A DNA stretch of 64,000 nt. Origin: a virus. A model generated the notes under the pieces. That model saw only the letters and a list, made by a program, of their open reading frames with translations. It was not told the DNA's origin and made no database searches. Where the stretch lies: positions 1-64,000 of IMG/VR virus record IMGVR_UViG_3300006923_000006; one strand, given 5' to 3'. Every line of letters starts with the position of its first letter. Within the stretch, counting starts at the first letter, position 1. The translations under genes were made by a program, and so were the position numbers. Shown here piece after piece: positions 3,160 to 64,000 of the stretch.

Positions 3160-4185
3160 ATGAACAAGAAGCAACGATTCTCAGTGTACAAAATGATTCA
3201 AGACGAATTAGTCGCGAAGCTAGAGGCTGGCGTGAATCCATGGAAGAAACCATGGAAAGGAGGAAGTGCTGGCTGGCCGAAAAACGTAATTAGCAATAAG
3301 CGATATCGTGGAATTAACGTTATGCTTTTAGCTATGCAAGGCCATGATTCGCCAAATTGGTTGACAGCAAACCAAGCGGCTAAGCTATGTGAGACATACG
3401 CAGCACAAGCAGAACGAAAACTAGACAAATCGTGCAAACTCTCTGAAATTTTTGTTCGGTCTGCCAAAAAAGGTAAGAAAGATTTCTATAAGGCCGTTGC
3501 CAAAGGCGAAAAATCAACGGTTGTTGTTTTCTACAATTTCAAGGACGTAGAACAAAAAGACGGTTCTACCAAATCTCAATATATGGGAATGCGATACTAC
3601 CGAGTCTTCAACGTTGCACAACTAGCCCCACAATTGCAGGACGAATTGAAAAAACGCGGCAAGTTTGGTGTTGACACTAGCAAAAACGATGATAAGCTAG
3701 ACTTTAGTCCTATCGAAGAATGCGAAGCAATCATCGACGGGTACGAAGACAAACCAGAAATCAAGCACGACAAACCACAAGCATACTATAGCCCCAGCAT
3801 AGACTATATCAACATGCCCAAAAAGGAGACGTTTGAATCCGAAGAAGGTTATTATGCTACCCTGTTTCATGAGGCTATCCATAGCACGGGACATACCAGC
3901 CGACTAGATAGGCTAGACCTAACGACATTTGGAAGCGAAAAATACAGCAAGGAGGAGCTAGTTGCCGAATTCGGTTCGGCTATGTTATGCGGAATTGCTG
4001 GAATTGAAAATGCTACGCTAGACAACTCTGCAAGCTACTTGTCAAGTTGGGCTAGTAAGCTAAAAGAAGAAGATTCGGAAAAATGGGTAATACAAGCTTG
4101 CCAAGCGGCGCAGAAAGCTTGTGACCACATCTTGCCGAAGGTAGAAGAGCCTAGCGAAGAAGTAGTAGCTACAGCAACAGCCTAG
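3160..4185 (+). CDS. ArdC-like anti-restriction protein (341 aa)
   Basis: The N-terminal ~130 residues (YKMIQDELVAKLEAGVNPWK, RYRGINVMLL) match the ssDNA-binding DUF1738 domain. The C-terminal part has the zincin motif FHEAIHSTGH, residues about 237-246, followed by SRLDR and KEELVAEFGSAMLC. This two-domain arrangement is that of ArdC/TraC-type proteins, known to bind single-stranded DNA and protect incoming DNA from restriction enzymes. It probably acts on injected DNA very early. It has two tandem promoters and AAAGGAAGC before its ATG, consistent with strong early expression. Full length, with all expected metal-binding residues visible. Confidence 0.9.
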   Translation: MNKKQRFSVYKMIQDELVAKLEAGVNPWKKPWKGGSAGWPKNVISNKRYRGINVMLLAMQGHDSPNWLTANQAAKLCETYAAQAERKLDKSCKLSEIFVRSAKKGKKDFYKAVAKGEKSTVVVFYNFKDVEQKDGSTKSQYMGMRYYRVFNVAQLAPQLQDELKKRGKFGVDTSKNDDKLDFSPIEECEAIIDGYEDKPEIKHDKPQAYYSPSIDYINMPKKETFESEEGYYATLFHEAIHSTGHTSRLDRLDLTTFGSEKYSKEELVAEFGSAMLCGIAGIENATLDNSASYLSSWASKLKEEDSEKWVIQACQAAQKACDHILPKVEEPSEEVVATATA

Positions 4186-20123: not shown

Positions 20124-21662
20124 ATGAACTTAACAGAATTCGCAAAAGGCAGAGTACAGATTCCATTCCCACTACAAGCAGACGCCTATACTATTGCTGG
20201 TGAGTGTTTGGCTAGTCCACAAGCTAAAAAGCAATCAACATACAATCTTACCAATCGGCGTAGTCCCGCAGAAGCTTGGCCAGACGTAGCCCAAGATTCT
20301 CGCATGGTGTTTTTTGGTTTGACACACTTTATCAGAAATCATTTAACCCAACATATTACCCACGAACAGATAGACCAAACCATTAAGTTTATGCAAACAG
20401 CACATTCGTTTGGTGGACAACTAAACTTTGACCCAAAACCGTGGCGAAGGGTAGTCAATGAATTTCAAGGTTATATGCCAATTCAAATCGTAGCATTGCC
20501 AGAAGGAAGTACATTCTTTCCTAATGAACCAGTAATACAAGTTTTTTCTCTTGATGAAGGTTTTGGAGAAATGGCGGCACATATCGAAGCTGTAATGCTA
20601 GGTATGGTATCTATTGCTACTGCTAGAGCTACGCTAGGTAGACATTGGTTAGAACAAATCCGAAACTATGTTAGACGAGACGTAGGGCACGATAAAGATA
20701 TTGTAGACCAAACTGCTAGATTTATGATTCATGATTTTGGTATGCGAGCTAGTAGTACGTCAGAGGAATCCGAATTACTAGGTTTGGCTCACCTATTAGT
20801 ATTTCATGGTACTGACACCTTTAACGCGGCGTATTTGGCTAGACAACTAGGAGCAGAACCACCAACGGGAACTAGTATTCTAGCATTAGCACACCGAATT
20901 GTGCAAGGATGGGATACAGAACACTGTGCCTTCTTTAACCAATATTGTGCTAGTCAAAAGTCTAACAAAGTTGCAAGTTATGTTGCAGATTGTTATAATT
21001 TTGACAAAGCTGTTAATCGTTTGGCTGAAATGGCCGACAAAGACAGAACAACAATTGTTGCCAGACCAGACAGTGGAGATTATGTCCAGAATGTTCTTGA
21101 CATCTTAAATAGTTCAGATAAAATTAGGTATATCCAAGGCGATAGTATGACGCCTACCAAAATTAACAACCTTATGAACCATCTATTAGACGAAGGTTTT
21201 CCAGCAACACAACGCGGAATTTTTGGCGTAGGAGGATATCTACGCAATACACCTAACAGAGATTCGCTAAGCAGTGCTTACAAACTATCTGCTGTTAGTG
21301 GATTAAATCCGAAAGTTAAACTTAGCGAGATTGAAGAAAAGGCTAGTATTCCTGGTCCTAATATTCTGACAAGAGAACATTGTAGTATTTACAGTCCAAC
21401 TACTTTTATGACTTATGAGGCAGACGCACAAGGTAAAGACGCACAGGTAGTATACTATGATGGTAACATGGTGAGTAAAGAATGTTTTGGTGATGTATGC
21501 TTGGAACCTTTTTCTGACATTCAATCGCGATGTATTAATGATTTTGATAAGTGGGAAAGCGTAGCAAAAAGACAACCAAATCTAGGACTAGGTAAGTTTA
21601 ATCTTTTTTCTACTGAAGTTAAACGTATTAGAAAAGAGACTTTTAACAAGTATAGGAATTAA
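20124..21662 (+). CDS. nampt: Nicotinamide phosphoribosyltransferase (512 aa)
   Basis: The motifs of NAMPT are in order: HDFGMRASSTSEES (cf. DFGYRGVSS), HGTDTFNAAYLA, ARPDSGD, YIQGDSM and GIFGVGGYL, all of which line the phosphoribosyl and nicotinamide sites in known enzymes. It converts nicotinamide plus PRPP to NMN. At 512 residues it is the usual full length. The neighbours, an NMNAT upstream and a Nudix hydrolase 3 bases downstream, complete a nicotinamide-to-NAD+ salvage route. In phages this gene pair is known to restore NAD+ depleted by NADase defence systems (NARP2-type), which is the likely role here. AACAGGAG ribosome-binding site. Confidence 0.95.
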   Translation: MNLTEFAKGRVQIPFPLQADAYTIAGECLASPQAKKQSTYNLTNRRSPAEAWPDVAQDSRMVFFGLTHFIRNHLTQHITHEQIDQTIKFMQTAHSFGGQLNFDPKPWRRVVNEFQGYMPIQIVALPEGSTFFPNEPVIQVFSLDEGFGEMAAHIEAVMLGMVSIATARATLGRHWLEQIRNYVRRDVGHDKDIVDQTARFMIHDFGMRASSTSEESELLGLAHLLVFHGTDTFNAAYLARQLGAEPPTGTSILALAHRIVQGWDTEHCAFFNQYCASQKSNKVASYVADCYNFDKAVNRLAEMADKDRTTIVARPDSGDYVQNVLDILNSSDKIRYIQGDSMTPTKINNLMNHLLDEGFPATQRGIFGVGGYLRNTPNRDSLSSAYKLSAVSGLNPKVKLSEIEEKASIPGPNILTREHCSIYSPTTFMTYEADAQGKDAQVVYYDGNMVSKECFGDVCLEPFSDIQSRCINDFDKWESVAKRQPNLGLGKFNLFSTEVKRIRKETFNKYRN

Positions 21663-22160: not shown

Positions 22161-22366
22161 TAGAATTGGTAGTAGCTGTTTTTATATGGGTTATAATCAT
22201 AATTATTTCTGTATGTGCATTCTGGTCCACAACTTTGTTTAGCCTAATATGTTATAGTGAATACTTAGGCTTAAAAGCTAAAAAACGACTAAACCAGATA
22301 AGAGAAAAAGAACGCAAAGCCAATGCGGTATGGGAAAAAGGACTTAGAAGGAAAATAAATGAATAA
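22157..22366 (+). CDS. Membrane-anchored small protein (69 aa)
   Basis: Overlaps the Nudix stop (ATGA). One long hydrophobic segment (LVVAVFIWVIIIIISVCAFW) followed by a basic helix (LGLKAKKRLNQIREKERK). Function unknown. Confidence 0.55.
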   Translation: MIELVVAVFIWVIIIIISVCAFWSTTLFSLICYSEYLGLKAKKRLNQIREKERKANAVWEKGLRRKINE

Positions 22367-23150
22367 CTTTGGCGATAGAATGAAAAGTTATGAAAAAGCT
22401 TTTGATATCAGACTAAAACCACCATTTGTACTCCGTCTTGATGGCAGAAGTTTTTCTAAGTTTACTAAACAATTTAAAACTATAGACCATCATCCTTTCT
22501 CTGACGAGTTTAGTGATTGTATGGATTTAACATTGTCTCAACTTATGAGAGAAACCAATGCTAGATTCGGATACACACAAAGCGATGAAATTAGCCTATT
22601 GTTTACACAAGATAACCCAGAAAGTCAAACATTCTTTGATGGCAAACTACAAAAACTATGTAGTATAACCTCATGTATAGCCGCTAATACTTTTAATGAT
22701 AATCATGAGTATGGATTAGCTCAGTTTGATTGTCAGGGTTTTAATTTATCAGACGATGAAGTGTGGAATTACTTTTTTTGGCGAGAAAAAGACGCTGTCC
22801 GCAACAGTGTTAGTATGTTGGCCAGACATTATTTTTCACATAAAGAATGTCATAAAAAACCTACTGGTCAACTGATTGAAATGCTGCTAGATTTTGTTAA
22901 CGTAGATTGGTATAAAACGATAGATGACAGATTTAAATGGGGAAAACACGTAAAGTCTATACGAGTAGAACGCCGATACTCAACAATGGAAATCGCCAAA
23001 CTGCCAAGAAAACACGCCGCGAGAAAAAATCCAGAACTTTTAGTTGCAAGGAAAGAAATTCGTGATATGATACCATTGTTCAAAGCGAGAAACCACGGTT
23101 TTAGTCAACAAAAATTCCTCATGCAAGAAGACGCTTATGGTGTTAAATAG
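22359..23150 (+). CDS. Thg1-like 3'-5' RNA polymerase (263 aa)
   Basis: FVLRLDGRSFSKFTK (residues ~23-37) and YTQSDEISLLF (~72-82) are the two metal-binding motifs of the Thg1 superfamily, which adds nucleotides to RNA 5' ends in the reverse (3'-5') direction. Eukaryotic Thg1 adds G-1 to tRNA-His; bacterial and archaeal Thg1-like proteins repair 5'-truncated tRNAs, which is the likelier role here. The gene is full length and followed 13 bases later by an RNA ligase gene. The ATG overlaps the preceding gene after AGAAGGAAAA. Confidence 0.9.
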   Translation: MNNFGDRMKSYEKAFDIRLKPPFVLRLDGRSFSKFTKQFKTIDHHPFSDEFSDCMDLTLSQLMRETNARFGYTQSDEISLLFTQDNPESQTFFDGKLQKLCSITSCIAANTFNDNHEYGLAQFDCQGFNLSDDEVWNYFFWREKDAVRNSVSMLARHYFSHKECHKKPTGQLIEMLLDFVNVDWYKTIDDRFKWGKHVKSIRVERRYSTMEIAKLPRKHAARKNPELLVARKEIRDMIPLFKARNHGFSQQKFLMQEDAYGVK

Positions 23151-30389: not shown

Positions 30390-31439
30390 ATGAACAAAAT
30401 AAAAATTACTTACAGTAAAAACGTAAACAAATACTATATTAGTAACGACAAGGGAAGTTTATCACAATATCTTAGTAGAGATTTACAATGGAATCTTTCG
30501 TGTATCACCTGTTGGTATAAAACAAAAGGAGAAGCACAAAAGACCGTTGATAGATACTTGGAAAAATGGAAAAGTATTCAACACAATCGTCACGGTTATT
30601 ACATAGTGATTGGTCGTCGTCAATGGGTGTCTAAAAACCTAAAAATAATTGATGACACCAATGGTAGTTCGCCAAAATGGTCAGGATATCATACCACATA
30701 TCAAGACGCTGTTGACACATATAACAAATACCTATTAAACACAAAGGAGAAAGAAATGCAAGACAACACAAATTCAGAATGGGAAGATGACGTTGATGAA
30801 ATCCTAGACACTTTTTGTGCTTTGGACCAGGTATTTACTGCTTATGACGTAAGTAAAGAGGTTCAGCGTGTAAGGAAAGATAATGATTTGTCTTTTGTTC
30901 GTCATGACACTATGAAAAACTATATTCATGCTCAAATGCTTGCTGAAAAAATGAGTGTACGTCAAGACGGTTTGTATGCTAGAGAACTACGCGATAGCGT
31001 CAATAGTATGCGACTACCTAGTAGAGCATGGGTGTACTCACCCGTTACGAATGATGCAGACGACACAGACGATACGAACGACAACACATGTGACAACAAC
31101 AACAGTAGTGGTTGTGCTACTGGTTGTGGTAATGTATGTAGGAAGCCTTCTACGGGAGTTAATTTCGACAAACGTGGTGGTGTATGTATCTCTAATAAGC
31201 TACTATCACAAATTGGCGTACATGCTGGAGATATGGTGCGGATTTACGAAAATGGCGTTAATAGCTTTTTGGTAAGCAAAGACCCAATTACTGGAACTCA
31301 ACCACTTGCTACATACACAGCTACACATAGCGGTAATGTTCGTCCTCGCAAAAAGGTGATTGAACAATGTGGATTGTGTGGACAAAACCTAGTTGGTCAG
31401 ATTAATGGTGGCAAACTTATTGTCGCTACAAAAGGATGA
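30390..31439 (+). CDS. Hypothetical protein with AbrB-like C-terminal domain (349 aa)
   Basis: The N-terminal ~110 residues hold two strand-strand-helix repeats (YSKNVNKYYISNDKG; HNRHGYYIVIGRRQWVS). After an Asp/Asn/Cys-rich linker (DDTDDTNDNTCDNNNSSG, CATGCGNVC), residues ~250-300 (NFDKRGGVCISNKLLSQIGV) resemble an AbrB-type swapped-hairpin DNA-binding domain. An in-frame ATG at 30756 with AAAGGAGAAAG could start a separate 227-residue form. A 9-codon ORF couples it to the macro-domain gene. Confidence 0.6.
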   Translation: MNKIKITYSKNVNKYYISNDKGSLSQYLSRDLQWNLSCITCWYKTKGEAQKTVDRYLEKWKSIQHNRHGYYIVIGRRQWVSKNLKIIDDTNGSSPKWSGYHTTYQDAVDTYNKYLLNTKEKEMQDNTNSEWEDDVDEILDTFCALDQVFTAYDVSKEVQRVRKDNDLSFVRHDTMKNYIHAQMLAEKMSVRQDGLYARELRDSVNSMRLPSRAWVYSPVTNDADDTDDTNDNTCDNNNSSGCATGCGNVCRKPSTGVNFDKRGGVCISNKLLSQIGVHAGDMVRIYENGVNSFLVSKDPITGTQPLATYTATHSGNVRPRKKVIEQCGLCGQNLVGQINGGKLIVATKG

Positions 31440-31921
31440 ATAATATGCTAATAATTATGAGGTCAATTCCCGGCGCGGGAAAATCAACTCTTGCCCAAAA
31501 AATAAAAGACAAACTAGAAAGTCCTCTGTGTTATATTTGCAGTACAGACGACTACTGGAAACGACCAGACGGTTTATACGACTTTAACTTCAAGCTATTG
31601 GACACTGCTCACACATGGAATTTTATTCGTGTGTGCTACGAACTAAGATTAAATCACGATGTAATCGTCGATAATACTAACACGACTTGGAAAGAATTTT
31701 CTAAGTATGTGATGTTTGCTAAAGAACACGGACACGAAGTCTTTCTAGCCGAACCCGAAACCGACTGGAAATTTGATGCTCAAAAATGTTTCGAGAAAAA
31801 TACACACGGTGTTCCACTAGAATCAATTCAGAAAATGCTTGACAGGTGGGAAAATTCTGCTACAATTTGTAAAACTCATGATTTGCGGTATTTTGATGTA
31901 AACTATAATTACAATTTTTAG
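31436..31921 (+). CDS. Polynucleotide kinase-like P-loop protein (161 aa)
   Basis: SIPGAGKSTLAQKI is the Walker A loop, STDDYW the substrate-side Asp motif, and VDNTNTTWKEF the typical N4BP2/PNK family motif. Similar to the kinase domain of T4 Pnk without the phosphatase domain; it would phosphorylate RNA or DNA 5'-OH ends. Its overlap with the upstream gene and position 9 bases before a T4 Rnl1-type ligase strongly suggests a kinase-ligase pair for tRNA repair. Confidence 0.85.
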   Translation: MNNMLIIMRSIPGAGKSTLAQKIKDKLESPLCYICSTDDYWKRPDGLYDFNFKLLDTAHTWNFIRVCYELRLNHDVIVDNTNTTWKEFSKYVMFAKEHGHEVFLAEPETDWKFDAQKCFEKNTHGVPLESIQKMLDRWENSATICKTHDLRYFDVNYNYNF

Positions 31922-31930
31922 GAAAACAAG

Positions 31931-33031
31931 ATGCTAGAAGTACAAAAATGGTTGCGAGAATTCAACTGTCTTGACAGACTAAAAGACCAACTTGGTATCA
32001 AGTCTACCGTACACGAAGACGGGCGGGTTATCTTGAACTACGGAATGATTGATAGTCCCAAGCGGCATAAAATTGTACGAGAATGCAGAGGCTTAGTTCT
32101 TGACAGTAAAGATGATTGGAACTTAGTAGCTCGGTCGTTTTTTCGGTTTTTTAATTTGAATGAAATACCGGAAGAAACTGACGAATTCGTATGGGAAAAT
32201 TGTAATATCCAACATAAAGAAGATGGTTCTTTGTTGGTAGTCTATTACTATAAAGGCCAATGGCATGTTAACACTAGAGCAAGTTTTTCAACTGGTCAAG
32301 TCGGAGACAATCCGATTACATTCCGCGAACTTGCCTTAAAAGCTATTCCAGAAAGCTTTTGGAACAACGCCAATAAATCTAGCACTTACGTATTTGAATT
32401 GTGTTCATTGTATAACAAGATTGTACGTACATATCAAACACCTACTGTATTTCTTCTTACAGTATTTGATGGACTACATGAAATTGCTCCTAATTTTGTA
32501 GATAGTGAAGCTAGAATTACGGGTGTACAAAGACCACAAAGTCTACGTTTTGAAAATATCGAACAGGTTCAAGAATATCTCAACATAGAATCTAATAAAG
32601 ACAAAACATTTGAGGGAGTGGTATTAAGAGATATTAATAATCTGCGTATTAAATGTAAAAACCAAAATTATCTTTGTTTACACAGAATGAGTAATAATGG
32701 GTCTCCGTGTAGTCCTAAAAATGTATTACCCTTTGTGCTTGCTGGCGAATTAGATGAATTGTTTTTGTTTTTCCCCGAAGTTAAAGAATACGCATTACAA
32801 ATTAAAGCCAAAGTTGATAAATGGCAACAAGAGATAGACGACTTATGGTATGTGTGGGGCGATATTGAAAATCAAAAAAAGTTTGCCCTTCGCGTTAAAG
32901 ACCATCCGTTTTCTGGCTGTTTGTTTAAGGCTAGAAAAATGAGTACCAATCCTGTTGACGAATTTAAAAACAATCCTAACGCTATTTTAAAGAGATTACT
33001 TAAAAGATATGAAAACAAATTATTTATATAA
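31931..33031 (+). CDS. T4 Rnl1-type RNA ligase (366 aa)
   Basis: HKEDGSLLVVYYY contains motif I (KEDGS, Lys adenylylated), RECRGLVLD upstream is typical of the family, FEGVVLRD is motif IV and RIKCKNQNYL motif V. The C-terminal domain is helical, as in T4 Rnl1. T4 Rnl1 with Pnk reseals tRNA cut in the anticodon loop by host anticodon nucleases; the same two activities are adjacent here. It is the second RNA ligase in the window, besides the Rnl5 type at 23164. Confidence 0.92.
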   Translation: MLEVQKWLREFNCLDRLKDQLGIKSTVHEDGRVILNYGMIDSPKRHKIVRECRGLVLDSKDDWNLVARSFFRFFNLNEIPEETDEFVWENCNIQHKEDGSLLVVYYYKGQWHVNTRASFSTGQVGDNPITFRELALKAIPESFWNNANKSSTYVFELCSLYNKIVRTYQTPTVFLLTVFDGLHEIAPNFVDSEARITGVQRPQSLRFENIEQVQEYLNIESNKDKTFEGVVLRDINNLRIKCKNQNYLCLHRMSNNGSPCSPKNVLPFVLAGELDELFLFFPEVKEYALQIKAKVDKWQQEIDDLWYVWGDIENQKKFALRVKDHPFSGCLFKARKMSTNPVDEFKNNPNAILKRLLKRYENKLFI

Positions 33032-38512: not shown

Positions 38513-38540
38513 TTGCAAATCCACGCAACTGGTGTATACT
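38513..38540 (+). promoter_or_regulatory. tmRNA promoter TTGCAA-16-TATACT
   Basis: TTGCAA 38513-38518 and TATACT 38535-38540. The -10 box ends 12 bases before the mature 5' end of the tmRNA. Confidence 0.75.
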
Positions 38541-38552
38541 TTATTAGAGTTT

Positions 38553-38846
38553 GGGCCAGAATTAGAATCGATTCGGCAAAAGACGACAGAACTGCATGTG
38601 GTAGTTGGACGAATGGCTACTTTAAAAATCGTCTAAAATGTTAATTGGCAACAATTTGCAATTGGCTGCGTAAGCAGGTGAGGTTGTTTAGTACCTTATA
38701 ACCCAAACTAAACTGGAGACCCCGATGGTTTATGGAAACCGTTCATAAACGGAACCAAACGCTGATTCTCGCCATGGCGGGTAAACATGTAGACGTTTTG
38801 TTTGATGTTGTTAGAAGACGCGAAGTGCAACTCTTCGCCTGGTCCA
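38553..38846 (+). ncRNA. ssrA: tmRNA (transfer-messenger RNA)
   Basis: GGGCCAG (38553-38559) pairs with CTGGTCC (38839-38845), followed by A. The T-arm is CGAAG-TGCAACT-CTTCG. After the 5' acceptor strand come GAATCGATTCGGC and ACTGCATGTGG, equivalents of conserved tmRNA elements. A pseudoknot (GTAG/CTAC with GACGA/TCGTC) follows, then the tag frame GGC AAC AAT TTG CAA TTG GCT GCG TAA (GNNLQLAA), with the stop in the loop of CTGC-GTAA-GCAG as in known tmRNAs. Further paired regions (GTTTAG/CTAAAC, CCGTTCATAAACGG) fit PK2-PK3. The LAA end marks tagged proteins for ClpXP-type proteases. The exact resume codon is inferred. 294 nt, slightly shorter than bacterial ones (about 350). Confidence 0.93.
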
Positions 38847-39004
38847 TTTATATTTTCCCCCCAGAATTGATTGATTTTTGTAAAAACGTAGTAAAACACA
38901 ATAATCATTAATCTAGTTACACACGATTGGGAAGGTTGGAATGGAAAAATCGATTTAAACGAAGTAGAATGGGTAATTGACATTACCAGAAAGAAAACAA
39001 AATA
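38847..39004 (+). other. Short spacer with a possible gene remnant
   Basis: From about 38893 to 39004 an open frame without a start codon reads NLVTHDWEGWNGKIDLNEVE and ends ITRKKTK-stop just before the next gene. It may be the tail of a gene broken by tmRNA insertion, or chance. Confidence 0.3.
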
Positions 39005-39907
39005 ATGCACATAATTGAAAGACTAACTAAAAACAAAGTAATACAACCTCCGCAGTGGTTACCCACTAATGTACACTATCTCGTAATTACTGGTAGTGAG
39101 AGTTATGGTGTATCTTCTGGTAATTCAGACATTGATGTTAAAGGTATATCCATTCCTCCTAAAAACATGTTATTCCCACATTTAGATGGTAAAATTCCAG
39201 GTTTTAATTGGCCAAGCGAAAAAGAATACAACAAAAAAACCAATTGGCAATCACACCACAATCATGATGTAAGCACAGGTAAAGAATACGACCTTGATAT
39301 TAAGTCTATTACTAGGTTTTTCTTTTTAGCATACGGTTGTAATCCTGATATTATTGACAGTCTATTTGTTCCTCCAAGGTGTATATTGTTTGAATCTAAA
39401 GCAGGACAACTAATGAGAGACGAGAGACATTTGTTTCTGTCTAAACTAGGTTGGAATAAGTATAAAGGATACGCTTATGGACAAGTCCGTAGATATCTTT
39501 ATGGTGATGATTACAAACCAGAAGGTAAAAGAATAAAAATCGTAGAACAATATGGCTATGATACCAAAGGTGCTTATCACGTAGTTCGTCTTCTTAACGA
39601 GATTGAGCAAATTCTAACCACTGGCGATTTAAATTTAGAAATCAACAGAGAACAACTCAAAAGTATTCGTAACGGCGAATGGACCAAAGAACAGATTCTG
39701 GAATATTTTCACAATAAAGAAAAACAACTTGAGAAAATTTACTTAGAATCAGACCTACAAGCAAAACCAGACAAAGAAAAAATCGAAGAATTGCTTCGCG
39801 AATGTCTGAAAATACAGTATAATGAACTTGAAATCGTGATTGACAAAAACAAAGACCGCAAGACATTAGAAATGGTCTATAGTCTACTACAGGAAAGGAT
39901 GTATTAG
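39005..39907 (+). CDS. RlaP-like nucleotidyltransferase (300 aa)
   Basis: YLVITGSESYGVSSGNSDID (residues ~25-44) is the pol-beta GS...DxD active-site motif of the PF10127/RlaP group. A helical C-terminal domain follows. RlaP-type proteins were named for their association with RNA ligases in RNA repair operons (Burroughs and Aravind). Coming right after a tmRNA gene and in a genome segment with two RNA ligases and a Thg1-like polymerase, a role in RNA end repair is a reasonable inference; its substrate is not known. Confidence 0.78.
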   Translation: MHIIERLTKNKVIQPPQWLPTNVHYLVITGSESYGVSSGNSDIDVKGISIPPKNMLFPHLDGKIPGFNWPSEKEYNKKTNWQSHHNHDVSTGKEYDLDIKSITRFFFLAYGCNPDIIDSLFVPPRCILFESKAGQLMRDERHLFLSKLGWNKYKGYAYGQVRRYLYGDDYKPEGKRIKIVEQYGYDTKGAYHVVRLLNEIEQILTTGDLNLEINREQLKSIRNGEWTKEQILEYFHNKEKQLEKIYLESDLQAKPDKEKIEELLRECLKIQYNELEIVIDKNKDRKTLEMVYSLLQERMY

Positions 39908-40467
39908 TGTTTGATGCAATAACAGAGACTAACTATCGTTTTGTTTTTACTATGACTGGTGGTGGAACAGAATTTATTGGAAACCTACTTTCTGGTGGTG
40001 GTTTGTCAAAACATGTACTATCATGTAATGTCCCTTATTCACAAAGAGCATTAAGAAATTACATTGCTAGATGGCACCCTACCCCAAGTCATGTACATTC
40101 TCATAAAATTGACAAATACGTTTCTGAAGAAACAGCAATCACTATGGCAACATCGTCTTTTTATGAAGGCCATACTTTAACAGACGATACTGAAGTAGTA
40201 GGACTAGGTTGTACTTCTGCTTTACAACGTAGAGGAGACGACAGAGAAGGCAGAGAGTATAAAGCGTTTTGTGCTTTGTGTTCAGATGAATTAGGATTAA
40301 AAACATTCAAACTTGAACTTAATAAATCTAATAGAAAAGAACACGAAGAAATGAATGCTTGTTTTATTCAAGAGTGTTTGTTGAGATTTTTAATCAATGA
40401 TACAGAAAGAACATTACACACACCACAAAAATGGGAAGGATTTAAGGATTTTACAGAATGCGTCTAA
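39907..40467 (+). CDS. CinA/PncC-like protein (NMN amidohydrolase family) (186 aa)
   Basis: TMTGGGTEFIGNLLSGGGLS, VPYSQRALRNYI and ATSSFYEGHTLTDD...VGLGCTSAL match the CinA C-terminal (PncC) family variant beginning TGGGS. PncC enzymes deamidate NMN to nicotinate mononucleotide, another entry to NAD. Key residues of this variant are not certain to me, so activity is unproven. Start GTG 39907 overlaps the previous TAG, with AGGAAAGGA upstream. Confidence 0.7.
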   Translation: MFDAITETNYRFVFTMTGGGTEFIGNLLSGGGLSKHVLSCNVPYSQRALRNYIARWHPTPSHVHSHKIDKYVSEETAITMATSSFYEGHTLTDDTEVVGLGCTSALQRRGDDREGREYKAFCALCSDELGLKTFKLELNKSNRKEHEEMNACFIQECLLRFLINDTERTLHTPQKWEGFKDFTECV

Positions 40468-41522
40468 ATTTGTATGCACCTACTAACAAACTAAGCTACG
40501 GAATTTGCGGAACAAACATCTTAAAATGCCTATGTCAAGAAGGAGTTGAGGTAAGCTATTTTCCTATTGGCCCATCATTACCAGACAAAGAGATTAAAAA
40601 ATGTCATGAAAGAGCTATGGTCGGTTATGATAGAAATGCTCCTTGTGTTAAGATATGGCATCAACATGGACTACAAGAAATGGTTGGAAGCGGGTTGCAT
40701 GTCGGCTATCCTATTTTTGAGTTGGATACTTTTACTCCCGTGGAACTCCATAGTCTTAGTAATTGTGATGCTCTCTTTGTTTGTTCACATTGGGCCAAAA
40801 AAATTATAGAAAAATACATAGACGTGCCTACTCGTGTTGTTCCTTTAGGTGTTGACAGAAGTATTTTTAATCCTACGACCAGCTACAGAACACCAAGAGA
40901 TACAGTGTTTTTAGCGTCTGGAAAGTGGGAAATACGAAAAGGTCACGATTTTTTAGCAGAAGCGTTCAACAAAGCGTTCAATAGTGACGATAATGTACAA
41001 CTGTGGATGGCGTGTAGTAACCCTTTCCTCACGGAGGAACAAACCAATAAATGGCATACTTACTATAAACAACAATGTGGTGACAAAGTTAGATTTATTC
41101 CATATGTTGATACTCAATCTCAACTTGCAGATTTAATGAGTAAAGTAGACTGTGGCGTATTCTTATCAAGAGCAGAAGGATGGAATCTTGGTCTTTTAGA
41201 AATGATGGCTATGGGAAAACAAGTAATAACAACAGATTATTCTGGACATACAGAATTTTGTCATGGTAAAAATTCATTATTAATCGATACAGAACAGGTT
41301 GAACCAGCAAACGACGGTATTTGGTTTCATGGACAAGGCAATTGGGCGAAACTTGGTGATAAACAATTAGAACAAACTATACATACGCTTAGATTAATAC
41401 ATCAAGAAAAAAATAAGAAAGGGTCTCTTGACGTAAACACATGCGGAATTGATACAGCAAAAAAATACACTTGGACTAACAGTGCTAAAACCATAATTAA
41501 GCACCTAGGAGAATTGAATTGA
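40458..41522 (+). CDS. GT4-type glycosyltransferase (354 aa)
   Basis: FLASGKWEIRKGHDFLAEAF and LSRAEGWNLGLLEMMAMGKQ followed by VITTDYSGHTEFC are the nucleotide-sugar binding motifs of GT-B glycosyltransferases (EGWxxxxLEAMA-like). The C-terminal region is intact. The ATG overlaps the preceding gene. Confidence 0.88.
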   Translation: MRLNLYAPTNKLSYGICGTNILKCLCQEGVEVSYFPIGPSLPDKEIKKCHERAMVGYDRNAPCVKIWHQHGLQEMVGSGLHVGYPIFELDTFTPVELHSLSNCDALFVCSHWAKKIIEKYIDVPTRVVPLGVDRSIFNPTTSYRTPRDTVFLASGKWEIRKGHDFLAEAFNKAFNSDDNVQLWMACSNPFLTEEQTNKWHTYYKQQCGDKVRFIPYVDTQSQLADLMSKVDCGVFLSRAEGWNLGLLEMMAMGKQVITTDYSGHTEFCHGKNSLLIDTEQVEPANDGIWFHGQGNWAKLGDKQLEQTIHTLRLIHQEKNKKGSLDVNTCGIDTAKKYTWTNSAKTIIKHLGELN

Positions 41523-43467: not shown

Positions 43468-44502
43468 ATGAAACAATATTTGGATATAGTTAGGAATATT
43501 TTACAAACAGGAACTCCAAAAAACCCAGTTAGAGTAGGTTCTGATGGTAAAGTAGAAAAGGTTGAAAACGAAACGATAGGATTGCCTAACATATTTTTTA
43601 GTCATGATATGGCTGATGGTTTTCCTTTGTTAACTACTAAAAAAGTACACTTTCATAGTGTTGCTGTTGAATTAGAAGGTTTTCTAAAAGGTATTACCGA
43701 TAAGTCTTGGTATCAAGAACGCAAATGTAGTATATGGAACGAATGGGCTAATGACGATGCATGTCGAGACTTTTACGAAAAAAATTACAGACAACCATAT
43801 TTAAGAGATAAAGCAGCAGGTTTAGGTGACCATATTGATGATTTTGGCTTAGTTCCTTATCCAGAAGTTAAAACAATGATTGCAAAATCAGTCTCAGACC
43901 TTGGACCTGTCTATGGTTATCAATGGCGTAATTTTGGTCAACAATACGGTTCAAAAGAATTAGTAGCGGACGACCACGACTGGACATTCCAAAGTAACGG
44001 ATTAAAACATGGACACGACCAGCTTAAAGATGTATTAAACACACTTAGAGATAATCCAACAGATAGGCGTATGGTAATATCTGCTTGGAATCCAAATCAA
44101 AAACATATCATGGCATTACCTCCTTGTCATTTAATGTGGATTGTGACGGTTTATAATGGTAAAGTCAATCTACATTGGACGCAACGTTCGGTATGTACGG
44201 GATTAGGGTTATGCTTTAACATAGCAAGCTATGGTTTATTACTAACAATGTTGGCTAAACACGCAAACTTAGAAATTGGAAACCTGTCTGGCTCATTAAT
44301 TGACTGTCATATTTACGAAGACCACATAGCTCCATTGTCAGAACAAATTAAAAGACAACCAAAACAATTGCCGCAAATCCAAATAGACAACAATAATGAT
44401 GATGACAAATATCCTTTTGATTTACTAAGATGGACACATAAGAACTATAAATTAATAGACTATGATTATCATCCACGTATTAAAATGAATGTTACCGTTT
44501 AA
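43468..44502 (+). CDS. thyA: Thymidylate synthase (344 aa)
   Basis: FPLLTTKKVHFHSVAVELEG, GPVYGYQWRNFG, LPPCHLMWIVTV (catalytic Cys) and a C-terminal KMNVTV tail identify a ThyA-type enzyme making dTMP from dUMP. The substrate motif usually written QRSxDxxLGLPFN reads QRSVCTGLGLCFN here: the conserved Asp is Cys and the Pro is Cys, while the Asn is kept. That may mean altered substrate handling (for example a modified pyrimidine), or just divergence. AAAGGACAAG ribosome-binding site. Confidence 0.92.
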   Translation: MKQYLDIVRNILQTGTPKNPVRVGSDGKVEKVENETIGLPNIFFSHDMADGFPLLTTKKVHFHSVAVELEGFLKGITDKSWYQERKCSIWNEWANDDACRDFYEKNYRQPYLRDKAAGLGDHIDDFGLVPYPEVKTMIAKSVSDLGPVYGYQWRNFGQQYGSKELVADDHDWTFQSNGLKHGHDQLKDVLNTLRDNPTDRRMVISAWNPNQKHIMALPPCHLMWIVTVYNGKVNLHWTQRSVCTGLGLCFNIASYGLLLTMLAKHANLEIGNLSGSLIDCHIYEDHIAPLSEQIKRQPKQLPQIQIDNNNDDDKYPFDLLRWTHKNYKLIDYDYHPRIKMNVTV

Positions 44503-44503
44503 A

Positions 44504-44617
44504 ATGTTTTATACATACCTTTTTTTAATTCTGTATGTAATCAATCCTCCTGATACACCAATTGCCTACGGAAAATTAAAAGGAAGTCCCAAAATAAAGT
44601 CTACAAAAGGAAAATAA
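44504..44617 (+). CDS. Small exported or membrane peptide (37 aa)
   Basis: ATG 44504, two bases after the ThyA stop. A short hydrophobic start (FYTYLFLILYVINP) and a basic tail. It overlaps the next start (TAATG) and supplies that gene's ribosome-binding site. Confidence 0.4.
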   Translation: MFYTYLFLILYVINPPDTPIAYGKLKGSPKIKSTKGK

Positions 44618-45303
44618 TGATAAAAACAATTGAATGGGAAAGTTATGAATACAAGTACGACACTCTACAAAACCGTATTCATGCAGACACAGACACAGAA
44701 GAAGATACTTCTTACGAAGACGCTCCAGACGATATGGATATGGATATGGATACGTTACTAACAAACGAAGCTAATTCAACGTTGGTACAAACACCAATTG
44801 GTGTATTTAACGTCTCTGATAGTATGAATCCGTTCAAACACTACAAATTTTGGCTAGGACACACAAATTTTAATATCTCACCAGAAGTCATCAGGATAAT
44901 CAAAAACATTCCTGGTGTAGAAGTATTGCGACCTATTAGTAGATATAGGTTTTTTATTGGTATTGGTAAACTTTTTAACTTATCTGATATACAAGGAATT
45001 ATAACAAAAGAATTAATAGAAAATCCTATTGAAAGTAAAATAGATTTAATTAATAACTCAGAAATAGAAGATAGAGTCATTTCATTGATTAATAATTGTA
45101 GTCAAAGTTATGCCGAGTGGATGATTTATATTTTTCCAAACGGCGAAATTGATTATATCTATAAAGGACAAGAAGACTATCAAGCTTGGGTTGAAGCATA
45201 CAAACAGTCTTTTAACATATCGGGTGGTATTCTTATAGGGTCAGATGATGTCAACAAAAATCAAAAGAAGAAACCTATCACAAACAAGCGAACTAATATA
45301 TGA
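44617..45303 (+). CDS. Hypothetical protein (228 aa)
   Basis: Acidic N-terminal region with an Asp-Met tandem repeat (DDMDMDMDT, from repeated GATATG), then an alpha/beta part (FNISPEVIRIIKNIPGVEVL; YRFFIGIGKLFNLSDI). Not recognised. Overlaps the ClpP-like gene by 59 bases. Confidence 0.6.
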   Translation: MIKTIEWESYEYKYDTLQNRIHADTDTEEDTSYEDAPDDMDMDMDTLLTNEANSTLVQTPIGVFNVSDSMNPFKHYKFWLGHTNFNISPEVIRIIKNIPGVEVLRPISRYRFFIGIGKLFNLSDIQGIITKELIENPIESKIDLINNSEIEDRVISLINNCSQSYAEWMIYIFPNGEIDYIYKGQEDYQAWVEAYKQSFNISGGILIGSDDVNKNQKKKPITNKRTNI

Positions 45304-45955
45304 TATACACGAGCATTGTATAAATACCGACAGTAGAGAAATATTCTTACATTCCAATCTATACCTTGAAGAAGAAAAAGGTGTAGATTTTGCTATGGCT
45401 GTACAGTTTGAAAAGAATATGCGATTGCTAAACAAGTTAGGTGACTTGCCTATTTTAGTACATATGCATACGATTGGTGGTGAGTGGGAGGCTGGAATGG
45501 CAATCTATGATACCATAAAATATAGCAAATCTCCTGTGGTTATAGTAGCATACGCCAATGCTCGTTCTATGAGTAGTATTATTTTACAAGCAGCAACAGA
45601 ACACGGCAGAATAATGATGCCGAGTTCTGTTTTTATGTACCACCACGGAACTATGGGTCATGAGGGTCATACTATTGAGTATTTGACAGTTGCTAAAGAA
45701 CTAGAGAAAAGTATGGATACAATGTTAGATATTTACGTTAATAAGTGTCAATACGGTGAAATATTTACGGGATGGACAGATAAAAGAATCCGCAACCAAC
45801 TCAAAAAAGAGATGGAGCAAAAGATGGATGTTTATCTAAATGCTGACGAAACAGTAGAACACGGATTTGCTGATGCAGTCATAGGAACAGAAGGATATGA
45901 GACTATAGAAGACGCACTAACTACTGTTAAACACCTAATGGATGACGAATGTTAA
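45245..45955 (+). CDS. ClpP-like serine protease (236 aa)
   Basis: HTIGGEWEAGMAIYDTI, NARSMSSIILQAATE (Ser), SSVFMYHHGTMG (His) and NADETVEHGFAD (Asp) reproduce the ClpP fold and triad. ClpP-like proteins in phages often mature the head, or may work with ClpX on tmRNA-tagged proteins, which would be interesting given the phage tmRNA; the family is closer to stand-alone forms. ATG 45245 or 45248. Confidence 0.88.
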   Translation: MMSTKIKRRNLSQTSELIYDIHEHCINTDSREIFLHSNLYLEEEKGVDFAMAVQFEKNMRLLNKLGDLPILVHMHTIGGEWEAGMAIYDTIKYSKSPVVIVAYANARSMSSIILQAATEHGRIMMPSSVFMYHHGTMGHEGHTIEYLTVAKELEKSMDTMLDIYVNKCQYGEIFTGWTDKRIRNQLKKEMEQKMDVYLNADETVEHGFADAVIGTEGYETIEDALTTVKHLMDDEC

Positions 45956-54606: not shown

Positions 54607-55821
54607 ATGAAAGTTGAAGATGGGCTTAAACTAGATTTTTCCGATGTTCTAATCAAACCCCGTAGAACATTGGCATATAGTAGAAATTCAGTCAATCTTA
54701 ACAGAGATTTTTCCTTCATGTATTCACCTAAAAAATGGGAAGGTATCCCAATTTTTGCAGCAAACATGGATACAACTGGCACCTTTGCTATGGCTAAAGC
54801 GTTACAACAATATAAACTTGTAACATGTCTACATAAACAATATAGCTATGAACTAGTTTGTGAGTTTTTTCTAAATAATCAGCTAGATTATGACTATACT
54901 TGGGTAAGCACAGGAATTACCGACAAAGACCTAGAAAGACTAAAAAAAATACTACAACATTGTCCAAATGTTAATATTTGTGTTGATGTTGCTAATGGTT
55001 ACAATCAAGACTTTGTAGAAAAAATAGCTTATATTCGTTCGCTTTCTCCAGAAAGCATTATTATGGCAGGGAATGTTTGTACTGCTGAAATGGCACAAGA
55101 ATTAGTTATTGGTGGTAAAGCAGATATTGTTAAAGTTGGTATTGGTCCTGGTTCTGTATGTACCACCAGACTCGTTTCTGGTATTGGATATCCACAGTTG
55201 TCAGCAATTATGAATTGTGCAAACACCGTTCATGGTTTAAACAGTGGGCCTAAACGTATGGCTCTTATTTGTGCTGATGGAGGATGCGTTTATTCAGGCG
55301 ATATAGCGAAGGCTTTTGGAGGAGATGCTGATTTTTGTATGTTGGGTGGGATGTTTTCTGGTTGCGAAGAAAACGAAGGAGAATGGGAATATCATATTGA
55401 TAGAGAAGACAAATATGAGCGGTATAATCTATATGAGCATTCTGATAATTTTATAACAGCATTAGTAAAAAGTGGAGGTATAGTAAAATTTCCAAATAAA
55501 CAACATATGGATAGCCCGCATGTTTTGGTTCCAAAATATTCTAAACAAAAGAAAAGCTTAAAATTCCATGGTATGTCATCTTCTAAAGCACAAGGTGCTA
55601 ATTTAGCTAAACATCGTTCGTCGGAAGGAAAAGAGGTACATATTCCTTACAAGGGTATGGTTAGCGAAGTGTTAGATGGAGACAATGGTATTCTTGGCGG
55701 TTTACGTTCTGCTTGTAGTTATGTTGGCGTCAAAGAACTTAAAAACTTTGCAGATGCTGTTACATTTATTAGAGTAAATAATCAACATAATACGGTGTAT
55801 GGAACAGGATTGGAAAAATAA
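54607..55821 (+). CDS. guaC: GMP reductase (404 aa)
   Basis: LKLDFSDVLIKPRRT, GIPIFAANMDTTGTFAMA, VKVGIGPGSVCTTR (catalytic Cys loop) and DGGCVYSGDIAKAFGGDAD followed by FCMLGGMFSG are the motifs of GMP reductase, which returns GMP to IMP. No CBS domain, so GuaC rather than IMP dehydrogenase. At 404 residues it exceeds the usual ~347 by a ~50-residue insertion (about residues 275-325, before KKSLKFHGMSS). Serves purine supply. Confidence 0.92.
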   Translation: MKVEDGLKLDFSDVLIKPRRTLAYSRNSVNLNRDFSFMYSPKKWEGIPIFAANMDTTGTFAMAKALQQYKLVTCLHKQYSYELVCEFFLNNQLDYDYTWVSTGITDKDLERLKKILQHCPNVNICVDVANGYNQDFVEKIAYIRSLSPESIIMAGNVCTAEMAQELVIGGKADIVKVGIGPGSVCTTRLVSGIGYPQLSAIMNCANTVHGLNSGPKRMALICADGGCVYSGDIAKAFGGDADFCMLGGMFSGCEENEGEWEYHIDREDKYERYNLYEHSDNFITALVKSGGIVKFPNKQHMDSPHVLVPKYSKQKKSLKFHGMSSSKAQGANLAKHRSSEGKEVHIPYKGMVSEVLDGDNGILGGLRSACSYVGVKELKNFADAVTFIRVNNQHNTVYGTGLEK

Positions 55822-56532: not shown

Positions 56533-57593
56533 TGAACAATCCCGTTAGGGTATTTGGACTTGGGAAAATGGGTATAGCTGTAGTCCATGCTTTGAAAAAA
56601 CTTGGCTATACCAATATCCATACATACGATATAACCACACTGATTGATAAAGAAACAGACGATATAACACAACACACCTGTGATGGCGGATTTAATTACT
56701 CAGAAGCTGTATCGAAAGACACCATAGGTGTTCTTTCGTGTATGCCTTACCATCAGAATTTACCTTTAGCTAAAGCGTGTATTGATAAAGGTGTACCATA
56801 CACTGATTTAGGCGGGCGAGTTGACGTATCTCAAGCTATTAATGATTATGCTAAAGAAAAAAATGCCACGGCAGTAACAGACCTTGGATTAGCACCAGGA
56901 TTGGTCAATCTGGAAGTTATGCACGAAGTACTTCAGGCAAAAACATTTGGAATGACTCCTACAGTTGCCAACATGTCGTGTGGCGGAATACCAGACACTA
57001 ATGTAGACAATATTCTAAATTATCAATGTACATGGTCTATGGACGGTTTAGTAAACGAATACGTAGATAACTGTCAAGCATTGATTGATGGGAACATTCA
57101 AGAAGTTATGAGTTTAACCAATGACTTTAGATTAGATTTTGATAAAATTCATTTTGAATCTTCTAGAACAAGTGGTGGAGCAGCACATACTCTTGAATGG
57201 ATGCAAAAACAAGGTGTGTTAAACAGCGAGTATCAAACAATTAGAAACCCAGGTCATTTTAATGTTGTTAGAACTATTTTGGGTGACAATAAAGATGCAG
57301 ACCTTTTGGAATCTATATTTCAGAAATGTGGTTACACAAGTAAAGACATGGTGGTTTGGTCATCAAACGTCTTCACTAAAGAAGGGTATAAAAAACTAAC
57401 ACTAAGTGGTATTCGTCATAACAGCGTTTTTACCGCTATGCAACAATGTACTGCTTTTCCTTTTGTTGCTGCTGCTGATGTCGTATTTAAATCTGGTAAT
57501 AATAGTCGTGGATATGATGTTATTCTTGATAATTATGATAAATTTCAATCCAATCTTAATGATATTGGTTTTAAACCACAGGCAGTCAAATGA
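56532..57593 (+). CDS. Saccharopine-dehydrogenase-family oxidoreductase (353 aa)
   Basis: VRVFGLGKMGIAVVHALKKL is the Rossmann GxGxxG loop, and MPYHQNLPLAKACIDKGVPY, TDLGG and VTDLGLAPGLVNLEV are motifs of the saccharopine dehydrogenase/carboxynorspermidine group, acting on amino acids or polyamine precursors. Start ATG 56532 chosen (AAAAGGAG upstream). Very unusual in a phage; the substrate is unknown. It overlaps the fructose-bisphosphatase gene by 4 bases. Confidence 0.85.
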   Translation: MNNPVRVFGLGKMGIAVVHALKKLGYTNIHTYDITTLIDKETDDITQHTCDGGFNYSEAVSKDTIGVLSCMPYHQNLPLAKACIDKGVPYTDLGGRVDVSQAINDYAKEKNATAVTDLGLAPGLVNLEVMHEVLQAKTFGMTPTVANMSCGGIPDTNVDNILNYQCTWSMDGLVNEYVDNCQALIDGNIQEVMSLTNDFRLDFDKIHFESSRTSGGAAHTLEWMQKQGVLNSEYQTIRNPGHFNVVRTILGDNKDADLLESIFQKCGYTSKDMVVWSSNVFTKEGYKKLTLSGIRHNSVFTAMQQCTAFPFVAAADVVFKSGNNSRGYDVILDNYDKFQSNLNDIGFKPQAVK

Positions 57594-58567
57594 AAAACAT
57601 ATCTTTAGATTTAGTCAGAGTTACGGAAGCTGGGGCAATTCACGCATCAAAATGGGTTGGTTCTGGAAATAAAGAACTAGCAGATAAAGATGCCTCACAA
57701 GCTATGCGTGATAGATTTAATCAAATGGATTTTTGTGGTTTAATTAAAATTGGCGAAGGTAAGAAAGATAAGTCGTTTGGTCTCTATGAAGGAGAAATAG
57801 TAGGGAAAGCAAGTTATACTGCGGATTTTATGACAGAAGCAACAAGAAAGCTTTACCGCCACTTACAAGGACATACGGTGTGTGATATTGCTATTGACCC
57901 TATTGAGGGGACTACTCCTACTGTGTACGGTGGACCAGAAGCTATGTCTGTGGTTGCAATAGCTAATAAAGACTCTATGTATACTACGGAAAACTATTAT
58001 ATGGACAAACTAGTTTGGGGTCCAACAACAAACAAGTTTAAAATTAAGCCATCTTTGCGGTATTCTATTAAGAAAAATATACAAATTCTCTCGGAAGCAC
58101 TTGACAAGCCTTACGATAGGGTTATTATATGTGTGCTAGACCGTGTGCGTAACTTAGACAGGATTGAAAAACTGCGGAAATTAGGCGTTAGACTCAAGCT
58201 TATTAAAGACTGTGATGTTTCTGGTGGTATTGCTGCGTGTTTGAATAGGTCTGGTGTAGATTGTTATATGGGTATTGGTGGTTCTCCAGAGGGTGTAATT
58301 ACGGCTGCTGCTGTTAAGGGTCTTGGTGGAGGCATGGAAATCCGCGACGTAACCAAAGATGGCGAACGTTGGTTTACAAAGACTGGTAGTATCGTAGCAT
58401 TAAACAAGCTGATTGATGGAGGATGTGCTTTTTCTGCAACTGGAATTACTACAGGTAGTATTTTGGATGGAGTGAAGATTATTAACGGCAAATATGTTAC
58501 CCATAGTATGTTTATGAGAAGTGAAAGTAAAACTGTACGTTGGTTAAGGACTGAACATGGAAACTAA
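57590..58567 (+). CDS. glpX: Class II fructose-1,6-bisphosphatase (325 aa)
   Basis: IGEGKKDKSFGLYEGE, CDIAIDPIEGTTPTVYGGPE, CVLDRVRNLDRIEKLRKLG, LIKDCDVSGGIAA, GIGGSPEGVITAAAVKGLGG and ATGITTGSILDGV match the GlpX motifs in order. The metal and phosphate ligands look intact. Length is near the bacterial 336. It makes fructose-6-phosphate, which could feed the pentose phosphate path and nucleotide synthesis, as carbon-redirecting genes do in cyanophages; inference. Confidence 0.93.
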   Translation: MKNISLDLVRVTEAGAIHASKWVGSGNKELADKDASQAMRDRFNQMDFCGLIKIGEGKKDKSFGLYEGEIVGKASYTADFMTEATRKLYRHLQGHTVCDIAIDPIEGTTPTVYGGPEAMSVVAIANKDSMYTTENYYMDKLVWGPTTNKFKIKPSLRYSIKKNIQILSEALDKPYDRVIICVLDRVRNLDRIEKLRKLGVRLKLIKDCDVSGGIAACLNRSGVDCYMGIGGSPEGVITAAAVKGLGGGMEIRDVTKDGERWFTKTGSIVALNKLIDGGCAFSATGITTGSILDGVKIINGKYVTHSMFMRSESKTVRWLRTEHGN

Positions 58568-63968: not shown

Positions 63969-64000
63969 ATGAAAGCTAAATTTTACCAAGTTGGTGGTTG
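63969..64000 (+). CDS. Start of a probable tRNA/poly(A) nucleotidyltransferase (partial)
   Basis: The window ends after MKAKFYQVGG. FYQVGG is the usual opening of the head domain of CCA-adding and poly(A) polymerase-like enzymes (LVGGxVRD) seen in phages. With only 10 residues this is tentative, but it fits the tRNA-rich surroundings. Confidence 0.45.
   Translation, partial: MKAKFYQVGG

Follow-up and report, generated by a model that had tools for sequence, protein, structure and literature searches.

A full-length, one-piece, divergent tmRNA gene (ssrA; the mature RNA has no encoded CCA) lies on the plus strand at positions 38553-38846 of a viral contig. In bacteria, tmRNA releases stalled ribosomes and marks their half-made proteins for destruction. 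The virus record is 163,651 bases long, and the window analysed here is its first 64,000 bases. We establish the structure of this tmRNA, its tag frame and its conservation within a viral lineage; its function during infection is considered further below. Phage tmRNAs as such are already known: ten were listed in 2014 (PMC4131195), and by 2021 tmRNA had been found in 402 of 18,146 phage genomes, or 2.3% (PMC9004378), which makes the first-pass annotation's view that few phages carry ssrA out of date.

Detection and extent of the tmRNA gene

The Rfam tmRNA model RF00023 matches positions 38553-38849 end to end (model positions 1-374) with 52.5 bits and an E-value of 7.9e-20 in a 601-nt search, above the gathering cut-off of 47 bits; rescaled to the whole window, the E-value is still about 1e-17. 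The Infernal covariance-model check proposed in the first-pass annotation thus gave a match above cut-off, and the coordinates it had assigned to a complete tmRNA are right to the base, with 38553 as G1 and 38846 as the discriminator A73. The gene occupies most of a 495-nt gap between open reading frames. Neither ARAGORN nor cmscan with its default fast filters, run over the whole window, reported a tmRNA at this position, presumably as a consequence of its divergence. Minimum-free-energy folding of the tmRNA alone was modestly better than that of shuffled sequences (z -2.4), so the case is carried by the covariance model and by comparison with relatives. Upstream, a promoter had been noted at the right distance, and a sigma-70-like candidate (TTGCAA-16-TATACT, plus strand, 38513-38540) with 9 of 12 consensus matches does lie there, but it is weak by itself, as four such matches were found against 1.6 expected and chance matches are common.

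The exact tmRNA gene was seen in one contig only. Near-identical contigs from two other metagenomes (L003, 99.98% over 6.8 kb; L010, 100% over 7.1 kb) indicate that the virus is no assembly accident; both stop short of the tmRNA.

Helices, tag frame and tRNA-like domain

We picked the tmRNA helices by eye before comparing them with homologues, so that the count of compensatory changes is informative and the fraction paired is no independent test. The acceptor stem, T-stem, P2, both stems of pseudoknot PK1, the stop hairpin and stem 2 of pseudoknot PK2 are fully paired in the window as well as in each of three distinct homologues; none of 46 compared pairs is broken, and compensatory changes number 11 against L015, 12 against L039 and 16 against L036. 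All elements lie on the plus strand. In the acceptor stem, GGGCCAG (38553-38559) pairs at 7 of 7 positions, including G3:U70, with CTGGTCC (38839-38845), which is followed by the discriminator A at 38846. The 5' strand of P2, ACAGAAC with the GCATG segment (38586-38598), pairs with CATGTAGACGTTTTGT (38786-38801), as indicated by the RF00023 match and the helix comparison, with compensatory changes in L036 and L039. Comparison with homologues likewise supports PK1 (38600-38636), in which stem 1 is GGTAG/CTACT and stem 2 is TTGGACGA/TCGTCTAA. The stop-codon hairpin H5, CTGC-GTAA-GCAG (38666-38677), is identical in L015 and L039-L041, and stem 2 of PK2 (38686-38713) joins GTTTAGT (38686-38692) to ACTAAAC (38707-38713) in 7 of 7 pairs, with compensatory changes in relatives. 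Every element named in the first-pass annotation (acceptor stem, T-arm, GCATG segment, PK1, LAA-stop frame and stop hairpin) is present, with PK2 clear in addition. A scripted search of the tmRNA for PK3 and PK4 gave nothing above shuffled sequence.

The tag frame (plus strand, 38647-38673) reads GGC AAC AAT TTG CAA TTG GCT GCG TAA, or GNNLQLAA-stop, and its first codon aligns with GCA or GCC in the relatives. The window has TTAATT directly before GGC, and the relatives have TTAATT or TTACTT ahead of the aligned codon, so that PK1, a frame-setting UA and a resume codon are all present in order. In E. coli tmRNA the five bases 5' of the resume codon determine the frame, and A86 (position -4) is critical among them (PMC2481249). 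Homology and this upstream UA rule point to GGC at 38647 as the very probable resume codon, and the tag that follows the tRNA-borne alanine would read (A)GNNLQLAA; the earlier assignment of NNLQLAA therefore stands at its LAA-stop end and is extended by one codon at its start. Resume codons in tmRNAs mostly encode alanine and sometimes glycine (PMC3968760). The tag end is hydrophobic, and the UAA stop sits in the GTAA loop of the CTGC/GCAG hairpin.

G3:U70 and A73, the identity elements for alanine, are both present in the tRNA-like domain. The remainder of this domain is unusual. In a hand alignment of the D-loop equivalent, AATTAGAATCGAT (38560-38572), with L015, L036 and L039, the D-region reads AG where the relatives have GG, and the equivalent of G18 appears to be A. 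The T-arm (38820-38838) has the stem GCGAAG/CTTCGC and the loop TGCAACT, in which the equivalent of U55 is G; by this alignment the 18-55 elbow pair thus appears to be A-G in place of G-U. There are six base pairs in the T-stem rather than five, apparently as in L039. Known tmRNAs bind SmpB only if the D-loop and T-loop interact (PMC3968760). Eukaryotic tRNA-Ala was dropped as a parallel for the elbow change, the paper in question concerning different positions. At the 3' end TCC is followed by ATTT, so that CCA is absent from the gene. A gene for a CCA-adding/poly(A)-polymerase-type protein (PF01743, E 3.6e-22) starts on the plus strand at the end of the window (63969-64000) and continues to genome position 64652; this PolyA_pol-head protein could supply the CCA, although its 227 residues are short for that.

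Just beyond the window, a short RF00023 match at genome positions 65294-65359 (L001:1501-1566) is below the cut-off and tRNA-like, and hence is no second tmRNA. It has an acceptor stem, a T-arm and a reduced D-arm, and by eye its anticodon could be GCC (Gly), reading the tmRNA resume codon GGC.

Relatives of the tmRNA and the surrounding viral genes

Relative to one-piece bacterial ssrA as modelled in RF00023, the viral gene shares the end-to-end match, G3:U70, PK1, P2, the tag frame and the stop hairpin, and differs in its glycine resume codon, its short tag of eight codons, the altered T-loop and D-loop, the 6-bp T-stem and the lack of a recognisable match to PK3 and PK4. Pattern searches identified one-piece homologues scoring 83-117 bits with Rfam in the viral contigs L015, L036 and L039-L041; the pattern TGCATG...TAAACATGTAGA hit 26 loci, three of which are genuine tmRNAs (L015, L033 and L036). 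The IMG/VR tmRNAs of L015 and L039-L041 resemble that of the window in architecture, upstream TTAATT, stop hairpin and neighbouring genes, whereas they have an alanine resume codon, the tags AESQFAMAA or ANENFALAA and the canonical T-loop TTCGA, and are detectable with ARAGORN. Further viral tmRNAs with Rfam support are permuted and two-piece in L044 and L046 and long and one-piece in L048, and L047 and L049-L055 contain sequences similar to viral tmRNAs, some of them below the Rfam cut-off. Mycobacteriophages Bxz1, Catera and Wildcat and Bacillus phage G, from other phage groups, also carry ssrA (PMC4131195). The methylophage Melnitz, which has no integrase according to its authors, has a complete ssrA as well, but there it is a permuted, two-piece gene controlled by a glutamine riboswitch (PMC9004378); a fast scan of the whole window found no match to an Rfam riboswitch.

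Five viral contigs contained the combination of motifs that characterises this type of tmRNA, and a search of 84,980 species genomes of bacteria and archaea gave no hit; because the pattern was exact, bacterial relatives with one base changed would be missed, and viral exclusivity does not follow. One of the five contigs, L057, did not pass the Rfam tmRNA cut-off and was left out of the confirmed one-piece tmRNAs. Scans of bacterial genomes for the tmRNA type gave no match and hence point to no host. Nothing useful came from DNA searches with the neighbourhood, or with the gene in annotated phages, a search for related loci by the flanking methyltransferase found no relative, and the TerL relatives L010-L012 are short contigs ending before the tmRNA region.

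Gene order around the tmRNA is preserved in the contigs of L015 and L041, which share the order tmRNA, glycosyltransferase, IMPDH, ThyA, homologue of the gene at 44617, ClpP and homologue of the gene at 45949. In the window the tmRNA at 38553 is followed by a family 4 glycosyltransferase (plus strand, 40458-41522), adjacent to the tmRNA in the relatives too, thymidylate synthase ThyA (plus strand, 43468-44502; PF00303, E 2.3e-78, and synteny), the gene at 44617, ClpP at 45245 and the gene at 45949, with IMPDH (54607-55821) displaced. Protein identities to the two contigs are 21-47% overall (glycosyltransferase 38-41%, IMPDH 45-46%, ThyA 45-47%, 44617 homologue 34-37%, ClpP 37-38% and 45949 homologue 21-25%). 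As this order is kept in two distant relatives, the tmRNA is a maintained part of the viral lineage. The simplest reading is that a tmRNA stood at the same place in the relatives' common ancestor, and the finding that tmRNA recurs close to ThyA and ClpP in distant viruses suggests that the gene has been retained by selection in the viral lineage.

Other genes of the record were also noted. Directly downstream of the tmRNA is an RlaP-type nucleotidyltransferase (39005-39907), and other RNA-repair genes encode a Thg1-like protein (22359-23150), an AAA_33 kinase-like protein (31436-31921) and a T4-type RNA ligase (31931-33031), a set that would fit a phage facing RNA-cleaving defences. The window also has a NAMPT-like gene (20124-21662), a GlpX-type fructose-1,6-bisphosphatase (57590-58567) and an ArdC-like antirestriction gene (3160-4185). 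Genes resembling those for TerL, portal and major head proteins lie on the minus strand at 143-152 kb of the record. A ribonucleotide reductase with an intein and a LAGLIDADG domain is encoded at genome positions 71410-75006 (L005:7410-11006), and TerL (genome 148974-152237) is split in its relatives' alignments at about residues 354-759, which suggests an intein there also.

Possible roles of the tmRNA during infection

The full-length RF00023 match, the 46 of 46 intact pairs with their compensatory changes, the GGC frame, G3:U70 with A73, the synteny and the fit to the 495-nt gap together make it highly probable that this is a functional phage tmRNA that rescues ribosomes during infection, with expression, charging, tagging, proteolysis and benefit predicted from sequence. 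The RNA would be transcribed in infection, host RNase P would process its 5' end, a CCA-adding enzyme (from the host, or the candidate encoded by the phage) would complete its 3' end with CCA, and host alanyl-tRNA synthetase would attach alanine by way of G3:U70. The charged RNA, together with host SmpB and EF-Tu, would enter ribosomes halted on mRNAs that are broken or lack a stop codon, translation would move to GGC and append (A)GNNLQLAA, and the ribosome would be freed at UAA. A search for SmpB was negative for the phage and for a further 15 viral records that carry tmRNA or a tmRNA-like sequence, and we therefore assume that host SmpB is used; some huge phages do encode SmpB (PMC7162821). 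The tagged product would pass to a protease recognising LAA, most likely host ClpXP and possibly with involvement of the phage ClpP, and the likely benefit is that ribosomes stay free while host and phage transcripts are degraded. The odd tRNA-like domain (G18 to A, U55 to G and the 6-bp T-stem), the failure to find PK3, PK4 or a phage SmpB, and the occurrence of the exact gene in a single contig count against such a functional tmRNA.

A ClpP-like protease had been pointed out in the window, and the gene at 45245-45955 (plus strand) indeed belongs to the ClpP family of serine proteases (PF00574, E 4.7e-25, and synteny), retaining Ser-His-Asp in an alignment with solved ClpPs. A specific functional tie between this enzyme and the tmRNA is no more than plausible. 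Phage tmRNA has been proposed to maintain the translation machinery and to recycle host proteins (PMC9004378), and a dedicated phage module, in which tmRNA tagging would direct products chiefly to the phage ClpP, for example to recycle amino acids from host proteins, would accord with the intact catalytic triad and with the location of both genes, which this phage and two relatives keep within a single conserved block. We regard such a module as unlikely, however: no Clp-type AAA+ (AAA_2) ATPase was found in the 163.6-kb record, the top-ranking PHROGs for the phage ClpP are head maturation proteases, and of the 15 viral records mentioned above, with tmRNA or a tmRNA-like sequence, 7 have a ClpP, compared with 3 among 15 other viral records, an enrichment that is not clear, with near-duplicates in both sets, so that no general tmRNA-ClpP association is claimed. 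A role as a head protease would nevertheless sit oddly with the distance of about 97 kb that separates the clpP-family gene from the candidate for the major head protein. Equally doubtful is the broader proposal of a lineage-specific tmRNA subtype that would have been inherited together with ClpP as a joint virus-controlled module for ribosome rescue and protein recycling, its elbow (18/55) adapted to host SmpB.

The altered elbow positions and the lengthened T-stem could also be read as marks of a decoy that competes for SmpB and so blocks host trans-translation rather than performing it, as has been reported for a tmRNA of mycobacteriophage DS6A that consists of the tRNA-like domain only (PMC4131195). 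A decoy would have no use for the messenger part, all of which is retained here (PK1, the UA that sets the frame, the tag frame, PK2 and the stop hairpin), with compensatory changes, and we consider this role very improbable. Integrative elements often use ssrA, and the divergence that makes the gene invisible to ARAGORN might suggest a decaying copy or integration-site remnant of a captured host ssrA; such remnants are usually 3' fragments, whereas this gene is full length, has no broken pair among those compared and shares its position with distant relatives, so that decay is disfavoured and, in our judgement, slightly less probable still than a decoy. A chance look-alike, for which the negative ARAGORN and fast Rfam scans and the modest folding z-score might speak, is effectively refuted by the E-value of 7.9e-20 across the whole model, the covariation and the synteny. 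The functional phage tmRNA thus remains our preferred reading.

Most interesting about this gene are its altered elbow, its invisibility to standard tools and its place in a conserved viral gene block. That a divergent viral tmRNA is missed by ARAGORN and a default Rfam scan means that counts of phage tmRNAs are probably too low, and the conserved block provides a defined setting in which to study why phages carry a ribosome-rescue RNA of their own.
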